A stretch of 64,000 nucleotides of DNA from Thermoanaerobacter pseudethanolicus ATCC 33223 (lineage in GTDB: Bacteria > Bacillota > Thermoanaerobacteria > Thermoanaerobacterales > Thermoanaerobacteraceae). Within the stretch, counting starts at the first letter, position 1, and each line of letters begins with the position of its first letter. The notes under the pieces were generated by a model. It searched no databases. It was not told the origin of the DNA and saw only the letters and a program-made list of their open reading frames with translations. Location of the stretch: positions 1,871,001 to 1,935,000 of the forward strand of contig NC_010321.1 of assembly GCF_000019085.1 (NCBI RefSeq), given 5' to 3'. A program made the translations under genes and the position numbers. Below are positions 28,574 through 49,925 of the stretch, one piece after another.

Positions 28574-28647
28574 TCAGACAAAGGGGACGGTTCCTCTCAT
28601 CTGAACAATTTAGAATTCAGACAAAAGGAACCGTCCCCTTTGTCTGA
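28574..28647. repeat. REP-like palindrome with 21-bp perfect arms
   Basis: TCAGACAAAGGGGACGGTTC plus one C (28574-28594) and its exact inverse (28627-28647) enclose a 32-nt loop. The GGGGACGGTTCC core resembles dispersed REP-like palindromes seen in many Clostridia and related genomes. The remaining intergenic DNA on either side holds no gene. Confidence 0.8.
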
Positions 28648-28870
28648 GTTTAAAAAATGTTGATATTATCATACATAAATATCTTGTACAATGAAAGTAA
28701 GAACAATAAATTTTAACCTCTTCCCGAGGAGGTCAAAACAGTTGGAATTCATAATAAAAAATGATACAATTTCAATTGAGCGATGATGAACGTTATTAAC
28801 TATAAAAAGTTAAGGAGCTTTATGATATAATCAGAATTACAGTAATAAACTAGGGAAAAGAAAGATTAAT

Positions 28871-28887
28871 GACCCCAACAAAGGGGT
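28871..28887 (+). promoter_or_regulatory. Small hairpin covering the tnpB ribosome site
   Basis: ACCCC (28872-28876) pairs with GGGGT (28883-28887), which is part of the AAGGGGTGG ribosome site eight bases before ATG 28898. The stem is short, so masking would be weaker than in the other two elements. Confidence 0.45.
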
Positions 28888-28897
28888 GGTAAAAAGC

Positions 28898-30333
28898 ATG
28901 ATAGTAATACAGGCTAAACTCATTTTTCTAAACCAACAAGACAAACAAATAGTATTAGACTTAATGAGAAGATGGTCCTCCTGCATGAGATTTGCATATA
29001 AGAGACTTTTAGAAGGATATGATAGAAACACACTAAAAAGAGACCTTCAGGGAACATTTGACTTAAACTCAAGGTATGTAGATGATGCAATAATGAAAGC
29101 AGAAAGCGCATTAGAATCTGTCAGAGAATTAGGGAATAACCCAAAGAAGGTCATTTTTGGTGGGAAAAAGCTATTTAAAAAACTCCAAAAACGCCATATA
29201 AATGGAAAAGCGTATAAAAAATTAAAAAATAGGTGGCAAGAAAAAAGAAAAGGGAATCTCTATTCAAGAGGAGATAAAAGCAAAAAAGGTAATCTCAATA
29301 CAAGGATAGAAGCAAAAGAAAATGGCACTTTTTTAAGGATAAATGTAGGAGAAAGAAAATATGTATATTCCAGAATAGAAGCAGGGTATAAAAAGAATAA
29401 GAGGAGAGAAGAACTCCTGCAGGAAATTGCCAAATCAAACATACCCTACTCTGTAGAATTAAAACTCAAAAATGGCAGTATGTACGCCTATTTTGCTATT
29501 GAAGAAGAATATCCAAAAATAAAAATAACAAAAGAAAAAGGAGTTATAGCAATAGATATAAATGCATATCCAGACAACATATCATGGGCAGAAACAGATG
29601 AAAAAGGGAATCTAATAAGCTATGATAAAATACCAATGCCAGAACTTGCAAGCGGAAATAAAGACAAAAAAGAATACTTCAGATGGCAGTATGCTCACAA
29701 GATAGTAAAAATAGCGAAAGAAAAAGGAAAAGCAATAGTAATTGAAGACTTAGAAATAAAAGAGAAAGGCAAAAGAAGAGACTTTTCAGGAAGAAAATCA
29801 AGAAGGATAAGACATAGCTTTAGCTATAAATCACTTCTTTCAAAAATAAAAGCACTAGCAAAAAGAGAAGGGATAGAAGTAATAGAAGTCAATCCTTCTT
29901 ACACCTCAATAATAGGGATGTTAAAATATGCACCGCAGTATATGATAACAAAAGATATAGCAGCAGCCTATGTAATAGCAAGAAGAGGATTGAGTAAAGA
30001 AAAAAAATACCAGGCAATTATATAAAGTTTCTCAATGCATTGACTGTAGATGAACTGGAAGAATTAAAAGAACATGTAAAGAAAACAGTCAAAAACATAC
30101 ATTTAAAGAAAAAACATTTAAAAGAGATAAACAAAGCAATAAAACTCATACAAAGCCTTGAGAGTGAGCCAGGAAGGGGGCTAGAACCTCTGGATGGAAC
30201 AAGTTTTAGTACCTATGATTTCTGGCAAGTTCTCAAGGTAGCGGTGGTAACTCCACTCTCTCCTGAAAAGGTGCTAAGAGACTTCTCTCCCCTGAAGGAA
30301 TTACTAATTCAGGGCAAGTGGGGAGACCCGTAA
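28898..30333 (+). CDS. tnpB: TnpB-related RuvC nuclease without zinc finger, interrupted by a -1 frameshift
   Basis: OrfB/TnpB-like protein of the IS200/IS605 group. RuvC motifs are visible: Asp in GVIAIDIN (about residue 221), Glu in AIVIEDLEIK (about 281) and Asp in MITKDIAAAYVIARRG (about 352). The usual CxxC zinc finger between motifs II and III is absent; the stretch reads EVNPSYTSIIGMLKYAPQY, as in TnpB-related accessory proteins. Frame 0 stops at 30025, but the -1 frame continues at once with PGNYIKFLNALTVDELEELK and runs to 30333. The switch falls at a run of seven A (29999-30006 region) that reads A AAA AAA in frame. Start 28898 follows AAGGGGTGG. No TnpA is present. Confidence 0.8.
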
Positions 30334-30433
30334 GGGCGTGAGTTCCTGCTTCTTGGGGCAGGGGCTATGGCTTTCCCAAATACCGCCTGCTGGGGCTGGA
30401 AAAGTCTGAAGGGCGGACTACAAATACCCCAGC
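30160..30433 (+). ncRNA. Candidate guide/omega-like RNA at the tnpB 3' end
   Basis: This stretch is clearly more GC-rich than the DNA around it and full of pairing: GAGAGTG (30160-30166) with CACTCTC (30254-30260), GGGGAGACCC, and GCTGGGG (30389-30395) with CCCCAGC (30427-30433) enclosing AGTC/GACT. It overlaps the last codons of the shifted tnpB frame and continues beyond it to the element end. In IS200/IS605 elements the TnpB guide RNA comes from exactly this place. Boundaries are estimated. Confidence 0.55.
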
Positions 30434-30438
30434 TATCT

Positions 30439-30462
30439 AAACTGTACAGTTTTGTACAGTTT
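30439..30462 (+). mobile_element. Right-end stem-loop of the tnpB element
   Basis: AAACTGTACA and TGTACAGTTT form a perfect 10-bp stem with a 4-nt loop, as expected for the subterminal hairpin of an IS200/IS605 right end. The element probably ends within about 10 bp to the right. A matching left end could not be fixed; a small hairpin near 28716-28731 is a candidate. Confidence 0.6.
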
Positions 30463-30481
30463 GGGTAACCAGGGAGAAAAG

Positions 30482-30610
30482 ATGTTTAAATTCAACCTTA
30501 AAAATCTCATCTGGGCAATATGAGGGCTTGTTCTACTCACAGTGGCTGTATTTTTTATAGTCAACTGGCTTGTAAATTCAAAAAATAGCACCTCTAGTGA
30601 AAATGCGTAA
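30482..30610 (+). pseudogene. Small membrane protein with an in-frame TGA
   Basis: After AGGGAG, an ATG at 30482 begins MFKFNLKNLIWAI, then TGA (30521-30523), then GLVLLTVAVFFIVNWLVNS and a short polar tail to TAA at 30610. Without the TGA it would be a 42-residue single-span membrane protein with good initiation signals and a terminator. It is most simply a nonsense mutation, perhaps of TGG or CGA. Confidence 0.5.
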
Positions 30611-47760: not shown

Positions 47761-48018
47761 TTATTGACCCTTTCCATATATTTTTTAATATCTCAAAGAC
47801 TCTTTCTTCCATTATACCCTTTTAAATGTTAAATGTCAATTCTCAAATTAAATCTCCAAAGATTTTCAAATTATAATGGCATTTTTTAAGTGCATAAAAG
47901 TATTTTTTCTCAAATTATCACAGCCTGATTAAAAATTTTTTTCACTTTTTAAGAGCATAACCGCCAAAATATGTTAATATCTGTTATTGGCAATTTGGGT
48001 TAATTGAAGTATAATCGA

Positions 48019-49925
48019 GTAGGAGCTGAATAATTATTTTATTCAGCGTCCTCTCACACCACCGTACGTACCGTTCGGTATACGGCGGTTCATTAGGAAT
48101 TGTGTACAATTAGATATCTTTGGGATAAACTCTTATAACCTATGCTTTCAAAGTATTTATTTGTAAGAGTCTTATTTAGGATTGGGCTATTGGATATTCT
48201 CCAGTAGCCTTTCCTTGTATTGGCGTATTCCCAGGCTTTTTGTTCTTCTACTCCTAGTTTTACTAAGTTATCATGCTTCGTTTTTATCTTCTTCCATTGT
48301 TTCCATATACATGCCCTTAGTCTTCGCCTTATCCATTCGTCAAGGGTTTTCATTATGCTTTTCGCGTCTGCTAATCCAAAATAGTTGACCCATCCTGTTG
48401 TTATTTGATTTAGTCTTTTTATTCTGTTTTCCATGCTTATTCCCTTGTTCCGATTGGTTATTTCTCTTACTTTTTCCTTAAACCTTTTGATGGATTTTTC
48501 ATGGATTCTTATTCTTACTTCGTTTTCTTTTGTGTAGAATGAAAATCCAAGAAATTTTCTTCTCCATGGTCTATCTACAGCACTTTTTGCTTCGTTGACT
48601 TTTAGTTTTAATTTGCTTTCTATGAATTTCTTTATGCTCTTCATTACTCTGTTTCCTGCAGACCTGCTTTTTACATATATGTTGCAGTCATCTGCATATC
48701 GGCAGAATTTATGCCCTCGTTTCTCAAGTTCTTTGTCTAGTTCGTCCAACATTATGTTTGCTAATAGTGGACTTAATGGCCCTCCTTGGGGTGTCCCTTC
48801 TTCTGTTGATACTTTGATTCCGTTTATCATTACTCCTGATTCTAGGTATCTTCGTATTAACTTTAGTACTCTTTTGTCTCCTATCCGCTTTTCTAGTTTG
48901 GACATTATTATGTCGTGGTTTACTCTGTCAAAGAACTTTTCTAAGTCCATATCTACAACCCATGTGTATCCTTCATTTATGTATGCTTCTGCGGCTTTTA
49001 TTGCGTCTTTTGCACTGCGTCCTGGTCTGAATCCATAACTGCTATCAGAAAATGTATGGTTGTAGACTTTATTTAGTATTTGGGCTATTGCTTGTTGTAT
49101 TAGTCTGTCTAGTACTGTAGGTATTCCTAGTAGTCTTTTCCCTCCATCAGGTTTTGGTATTTCTACTCTTCGCACTGGTTGTGGTTTGTATTTCCCCTCC
49201 AGCAGTTGTTGTTTTATGGTTGCCCAGTTTTCTTTGAGATACGGTAGAAGTTCATCTACTTCCATCCCATCGACTCCATGGCTTCCTTTATTTGCAACAA
49301 CGCGCTTGTATGCTGCTTCCATGTTCCCTCGTTCTACTATCATTTCAAGCATCTTGCTGGTATATCTTTGTACCTCGTTTCTTCCATCTTCCGACGCCGA
49401 TGATATACTATGCACTTCCGTTGTCTTTTGAAATTCCATTTCTCTATTCAACGGATAGCCTCTTTGTTGAGTTGTCTGCAGTCTCTGCATATCTTTCGAG
49501 TCCATAAGATTTCCAAAACCTCCTAACGTTCGGTCCTTCCTTATCTATTCATGTCTAGATAAGTACTATGACCTCTGCTGACTTCTCAAGGTTCAGCCAT
49601 ACATCACTGCATGGGTTGTCACTTCAGATTTTACTCCCATGACTTATCCTTGAGACCTCCCCGGGTAAGAACGATAACTTTCATCTCATATATCTGCCAG
49701 ATTTACTGTATGGGATTCGGGTAGTGTTGGACTTCGTTTTGTTACGCAAACTCATCCATCCCAATTCAGCCTCTTATCTGGTTCTTATTCATCAGACCGA
49801 GATTTTGCCTTAAGCTTCCTTCAGATTCCACCTCACGATGGACACCCTTGCTCTTGGCTAGTGGTTCCCACTACCAAGCCCACAGCGGACTTTCACCGCC
49901 TAGTTATCGCCCATGCCGGGCGCAC
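48019..49925 (-). mobile_element. Group IIC intron with maturase
   Basis: Read on the minus strand, the 5' end GTGCGCCCGGCATGGGCG (from 49925) and about 420 nt of structured RNA precede the maturase gene. Domain V (about 48091-48056, GAACCGCCGTATACCGAACG onward) and domain VI (CTGAATAAAATAATTATTCAG, ending near 48024) follow it. The 3' end is estimated at 48019 (CCTAC). The intron starts two bases after the T run of a terminator hairpin, the target preference of group IIC introns. The maturase lacks an endonuclease domain, also as in IIC. Confidence 0.9.
48093..49505 (-). CDS. ltrA: Group II intron reverse transcriptase/maturase
   Basis: A 470-residue intron-encoded protein. Reverse-transcriptase motifs include GVDGMEVDELL, RPVRRVEIPKPDGGKRLLGI-type RT2, YGFRPGRSAKDAI, and the catalytic CRYADDCNIYV (about residue 270). 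Domain X (maturase) follows with GWVNYFGLADAKSIMKTLDE and the C-terminus has KGYWRISNSPILNKTLTN. There is no HNH endonuclease domain, as is usual for class C. Start 49505 follows AGGAGG. It binds and helps splice its host intron and copies it into new sites. Confidence 0.95.
   Translation of the reverse strand: MDSKDMQRLQTTQQRGYPLNREMEFQKTTEVHSISSASEDGRNEVQRYTSKMLEMIVERGNMEAAYKRVVANKGSHGVDGMEVDELLPYLKENWATIKQQLLEGKYKPQPVRRVEIPKPDGGKRLLGIPTVLDRLIQQAIAQILNKVYNHTFSDSSYGFRPGRSAKDAIKAAEAYINEGYTWVVDMDLEKFFDRVNHDIIMSKLEKRIGDKRVLKLIRRYLESGVMINGIKVSTEEGTPQGGPLSPLLANIMLDELDKELEKRGHKFCRYADDCNIYVKSRSAGNRVMKSIKKFIESKLKLKVNEAKSAVDRPWRRKFLGFSFYTKENEVRIRIHEKSIKRFKEKVREITNRNKGISMENRIKRLNQITTGWVNYFGLADAKSIMKTLDEWIRRRLRACIWKQWKKIKTKHDNLVKLGVEEQKAWEYANTRKGYWRISNSPILNKTLTNKYFESIGYKSLSQRYLIVHNS

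Follow-up and report, generated by a model that had tools for sequence, protein, structure and literature searches.

The window, a 64,000-nt stretch of the Thermoanaerobacter pseudethanolicus ATCC 33223 genome, carries at 28733-30473 a tnpB-containing element that is, judged by its relatives, of the IS607 type. We set its limits by comparing the same locus among congeners. The empty site in one of them (L086) reads ...CCCGAGGAGG followed at the insertion point by GAGAAAAGATGTTTAAATTC; the 20 nt to the right of the element are the same as the 20 nt after GAGGAGG at this site, and AGG is common to both junctions. Two congeners, G002 (L077) and G005 (L017), carry a copy at the same site, and the locus is without an insertion in six other genomes (L086, L089, L091, L099, L101, and L102), with GGAGG immediately preceding the insertion point in the congeners' empty sites. 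A second locus, upstream of metG, is continuous in eight genomes, with no insertion in the joined site; six of these were read directly and have GAGGAGG ahead of the start codon. At the HAD-gene locus, most congeners were too diverged for another empty-site comparison. The features of the element and its flanks are listed below.

28726-28732, plus strand: left flank GAGGAGG, containing the putative TAM (GGAGG), from congener empty sites and the left flanks of related elements
28731-28732, plus strand: putative crossover dinucleotide GG
28733-28877, plus strand: left end of the element, including what is left of the 5' part of tnpA (for an IS607-type serine recombinase; otherwise deleted), recognized from fuller copies
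28898-30025, plus strand: tnpB reading frame in its present form (375 aa), with RuvC D, E, and D (NCBIfam TIGR01765, TIGR01766)
30000-30007, plus strand: A8 run with one base deleted relative to other copies, including the L077 same-site copy; frameshift at residue ~370
30040-30333, plus strand: C-terminal part of tnpB after the frameshift, overlapping the RNA scaffold; relatives read through, and the tail has low pLDDT
30154-30473, plus strand: candidate guide-RNA (omegaRNA) scaffold, from covariation with controls and a covariance model
30464-30473, plus strand: right end GGTAACCAGG, with ACCAGG kept in nearly all relatives; supplies AGG before the downstream gene
30474-30493, plus strand: predicted guide GAGAAAAGATGTTTAAATTC, the first ~20 nt of the right flank, with an ATG at 30482; identical in the L086 empty site

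A 32-nt inverted repeat (91% complementary) lies just left of the element, at 28574-28647. Since similar sequence recurs beside the congeners' empty sites, it is part of the locus and not of the element. Rfam matches at 28.56-28.66 kb were miRNA-like models on an unrelated hairpin outside the element and were rejected.

An IS607-type element with a damaged tnpA

The host genome (2,362,816 bases) holds six copies of the element, the other five sharing 86-90% identity with that in the window. Copies or fragments occur in each of the ten genomes of the genus, and full or partial copies among them number in the dozens. More complete copies have an additional 161-465 bp between the left-end block and tnpB, and those with a complete left part have a serine recombinase reading frame upstream of tnpB. 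The intact TnpA in L053 is 197 aa long with N-terminal MerR-type and Resolvase domains; MerR and Resolvase domains were also found in TnpA of L046, and a Resolvase domain in that of L070. The hallmark of IS607 elements, a serine recombinase with a MerR-like HTH upstream of tnpB, is therefore present in relatives, and most of this gene is deleted in the window copy. Empty-site comparison revealed no target duplication, and GG is present in the target as well as at either end of the element, in agreement with published IS607 behaviour (PMC6188088). Nearly all left boundaries have GG and nearly all right ends CCAGG; one copy, that of L092, has AG at both ends. Repeated ACAGTT motifs at both ends may be TnpA binding sites. 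Rfam scans with gathering and with relaxed thresholds found no group I intron of the kind that would mark an IStron.

The window ORF stops at 375 aa where relatives read tnpB through to 478 aa. Its TnpB looks short due to the one-base deletion in the A-run, which falls just after the modelled core of the protein. The same-site copy in L077 has a single frame across the run, which argues against programmed frameshifting, and other copies also differ from the window there; mutation or sequencing error is the likelier source. The original prediction described the protein as compact, a description that does not apply to relatives of 443-536 aa. The prediction also did not include the IS607 context with its serine recombinase, the loss of most of tnpA, the frameshift, or the identity of the target motif with a ribosome-binding site. 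The window copy is damaged and at best trans-mobilisable, and intact relatives exist that are fit for tests.

A predicted RuvC nuclease without a zinc finger

All 22 TnpB proteins examined match both TIGR01765 and TIGR01766, and the RuvC residues D220, E283, and D353 (L070 numbering) are invariant among them. The 70-71 residues from the RuvC-II glutamate to the RuvC-III aspartate contain no cysteine in any of the 22, excluding the CxxC...C of a canonical zinc-finger TnpB, and the Pfam TNB match is limited to model positions 1-28 of 60. As a positive control, the zinc finger TSKTCSNCGRK...YKCQCG can be read in L214, a canonical TnpB from the same genome. Both protein features proposed at the outset, loss of the zinc finger and retention of three RuvC acids, are confirmed.

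An AlphaFold2 model of a relative (mean pLDDT 71.4) has a TnpB/Cas12f-like fold over residues 1-370, followed by a tail, encoded by the RNA stretch, with pLDDT of about 27-45. Its structural matches were Cas12f1 (Z 18.9), ISDra2 TnpB (Z 14.4), and ISFba1 (Z 12.7), and a PDB sequence search returned Cas12f1 as the sole match, a weak one (E 0.004). Among solved structures, Cas12f proteins have the closest fold (residues 1-376, Z up to 18.9), but sequence identity is low (16%) and a CRISPR array beside the elements was seen only at phage relatives. One such phage TnpB, 36% identical, is found in the region L190:1462-3632 (Thermus phage Lalka8, PQ109075). The record annotates a CRISPR array 16 bp further, in which we read several copies of a ~29-nt repeat, GTTTCTCCCGTGCGCGCATGGAGGCACCG; this repeat is unlike the right end of the present element family, and the omegaRNA model described below matches there weakly (E 0.19).

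We considered whether the protein could be part of a nuclease-dead, TldR-like RNA-guided repressor, given that the targets are gene starts, where binding alone would repress. Retention of RuvC D-E-D in all 22 relatives argues against TldR membership, as do the multiple copies and variable locations of the elements, and we regard a repressor of this kind as extremely improbable.

A covarying, pseudoknotted RNA fold at the right end

The original prediction placed a strongly paired guide-RNA candidate over the end of the TnpB-like gene, ending at a perfect 10-bp hairpin. The stretch 30160-30462 does fold at -116.9 kcal/mol, compared to -98.9 +/- 4.55 for 100 dinucleotide shuffles (z -3.95). It also overlaps the tnpB gene, whose frame extends after the frameshift to 30333; the RNA begins ~180 nt ahead of the tnpB stop, and in relatives the frame is open through most of the stretch. 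The hairpin is present (30439-30448 with 30453-30462) and grows to 14 pairs, but the boundaries needed revision: conservation begins at ~30154, and the right end of the element, at 30473, is 11 nt beyond the hairpin. The hairpin need not serve as RNA only, since it overlaps the ACAGTT motifs. The helices of the scaffold are as follows.

30158-30163/30231-30236, 30168-30174/30220-30226, and 30178-30187/30203-30212, plus strand: helices
30341-30351/30356-30366 and 30370-30377/30398-30405, plus strand: further helices
30383-30387/30412-30416 and 30389-30395/30427-30433, plus strand: pseudoknots
30435-30448/30453-30466, plus strand: terminal hairpin
30237-30239/30468-30470, plus strand: closing helix

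A MAFFT alignment, made without structural information, comprised right ends from Thermoanaerobacter, Caldanaerobacter, family f4 (probably Caldicellulosiruptor), Thermovorax and relatives, and family f51. RNAalifold predicted 71 pairs, 38 of which have changes on both sides. In a fuller structure with the two pseudoknot helices, evaluated over 32 diverged right ends, 96.6% of cells were paired compared to 37.6-50.3% for slid partners, a percentage biased in the structure's favour because the structure was partly picked by eye on the same sequences. Both-sided changes occurred in 43 of its 91 pairs. Cells with such changes numbered 240, versus 71.4 +/- 6.9 in shuffles and 20-66 with slid partners. 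All eight pairs of helix 30370-30377/30398-30405 changed on both sides, and all six standard pair types occur at one position of helix 30178-30187/30203-30212. The ~90-nt module bearing the pseudoknots appears dispensable, as it is absent in Thermus, f129, and two f4 elements. Versions of this module differ among elements of one genus or genome and are common to other genera (A2 alignment, columns 261-330; e.g. L005, L155, and L162), a distribution that suggests recombination or transfer between elements.

These changes bear on whether the stretch is a mere transposon end, composed of TnpA-binding repeats and the 3' end of a coding sequence, without RNA function. The ACAGTT motifs at both ends and the open frame in relatives are compatible with such an end. 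However, compensatory both-sided changes are spread over ~300 nt, remote from the end repeats, and some covarying helices alter the encoded amino acids; the low pLDDT of the encoded tail also speaks against this reading, and we consider a bare transposon end very unlikely.

As a test more independent than the percentage paired, a covariance model of the 5' domain was built from 28 Firmicutes sequences, with Thermus, f51, and f129 members excluded. It found all eight Thermus plasmid relatives searched and a relative in phage phiLo (E 6e-10 to 2e-5), f51 elements (E ~1e-10), and, weakly, f129 elements (E 0.0004-0.03), each at the expected place; because the model scores both, these matches alone cannot separate sequence from structure. 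In the host genome, it matched exactly six places, which are the six copies, whereas three canonical tnpB loci and three empty sites were all without a match. Rfam has no family matching the stretch at gathering or relaxed thresholds, nor the right ends of seven relatives.

The RNA stretch ends exactly at the transposon end, adjoining the flank, in all families. This placement is not what would be expected of a cis-regulatory RNA or attenuator acting on tnpB or the downstream gene, and the stretch is also accompanied by an intact RuvC nuclease and a constant left motif. Rfam does call some RNAs at such a position cis-regulatory, among them malK-I at a canonical tnpB in the same genome, and the element sits directly ahead of start codons; even so, we assign regulation without a guide only a slight chance. 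Collectively, the sequence evidence, namely the ends and empty sites of the element, its conserved RNA fold, the RuvC triad, and the left-flank GGAGG, supports the interpretation that the stretch very probably serves as omegaRNA scaffold for an IS607-type transposon with a zinc-finger-free TnpB, the flank being the guide. The guide-RNA candidate is therefore borne out in sequence and structure by covariation, the covariance model, and the left motif.

By analogy with related systems, a transcript through the end of tnpB would fold into a multi-helix, pseudoknotted scaffold, stopping at the right end ...GGTNACCAGG, and the first ~20 nt of flanking DNA would serve as guide, a length adopted from ISFba1 (PMC11061315). 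TnpB and this RNA would then cut unoccupied sites reading GGAGG plus guide, and repair from the occupied copy would retain and spread the element. RNA production, binding, cleavage, and homing are all attributed here from those systems. This candidate omegaRNA family lies outside Rfam and is tied to a naturally zinc-finger-free TnpB group in several Firmicutes families and Thermus. With it one can ask directly whether RNA-guided cleavage can do without the zinc finger, and the group is a source of candidate nucleases of thermophilic origin for which a purine-rich target motif is predicted.

Target motif, gene starts, and known systems

The search for a target motif left of related elements, proposed at the outset along with covariation over homologous elements, found GGAGG in 49 of 59 distinct left flanks. 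Base counts at the last five positions were G 58, G 54, A 54, G 56, and G 59, where the last two served to place the boundary and only the first three are independent of that choice. GGAGG belongs to the target, as it is present in empty sites; it is our putative TAM and is the same as the Shine-Dalgarno sequence. Beyond 55 of 71 distinct right ends, a start codon lies within 16 nt, with 6-9 nt the commonest distance, and opens a frame of 50 codons or more; at shifted positions in the same flanks the figure is 21%. Site choice seems to depend on the motif and not on the start codon, since GGAGG is kept at elements that do not precede such starts (L046, L140, L142, L164, and L167). IS607 TnpA alone prefers just (G)GG targets (PMC6188088), whereas 18 of 22 strains with RAGATH-18 IS607 TnpB cut at AGGAG (PMC11061315). 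A TnpB requirement is therefore the likelier cause of the GGAGG signal, although part of it could reflect TnpA's own preference.

A tentative extension, which we think somewhat doubtful, is that the family specialises in ribosome-binding sites: the TAM would be the Shine-Dalgarno sequence, the right end would restore AGG at the right spacing and so keep the downstream gene open to translation, and that gene's start codon would lie in the guide. If so, related species would have conserved guides, metG being an example, which would help homing, and translation of the gene would face competition from guide RNA maturation. Such a location gives a testable account of low-harm insertion beside genes, even metG. 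The open-access literature contained no relevant paper linking a TnpB target motif to Shine-Dalgarno sequences, with subscription journals mostly outside the search.

The element is predicted to work like TnpB-omegaRNA systems, of which the closest known is RAGATH-18 IS607 TnpB (ISFba1; Ren et al. 2024, PMC11061315, PDB 8iaz). The two share a serine-recombinase IS607 context, RuvC D-E-D, an RNA 3' of tnpB, and the flank as guide (predicted here), and the TAM shown biochemically for ISFba1 and related IS607 TnpBs, AGGAG, is nearly the same as GGAGG (PMC11061315). The present RNA, however, has no Rfam match and overlaps the coding sequence, unlike the non-overlapping RAGATH-18 RNA; the proteins are longer than the 330-433 aa of RAGATH-18 TnpBs; and the zinc-finger cysteines are absent. 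Due to the different RNA, coding-sequence overlap, and longer protein, this is not a RAGATH-18 system. As in IS200/IS605 TnpB-omegaRNA (ISDra2; PMC8612924, PDB 8exa, 8h1j), the RNA overlaps the tnpB 3' end and stops at the right end, the TAM is in the left flank, and the overall fold is the same, but intact relatives have a serine recombinase rather than a Y1 transposase, the motif is GGAGG, the zinc finger is missing, and the RNA is different. Thermus plasmid members bear the TIGR01765/TIGR01766 annotation ('IS200/IS605 family accessory protein TnpB-related protein'), labels for a transposase or accessory protein that carry no RNA, TAM, or IS607 assignment. No paper on this group or on a Thermoanaerobacter TnpB was found in the open-access literature, which, with subscription journals largely outside the search, is weak evidence of novelty.

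Two other loci yielded separate observations. Near position 2157936 of the host genome (L214:1241-1460, minus strand), Rfam malK-I (RF03069, filed as cis-regulatory) lies just 3' of the canonical tnpB on the same strand, a position from which it may itself be a TnpB guide RNA. The TnpB encoded there reads IILGNL at the expected position of the RuvC-II glutamate and is possibly nuclease-dead. Elsewhere in the window, group II intron domains (Rfam RF02001, RF01998, and RF00029) occur on the minus strand at 48014-49842.
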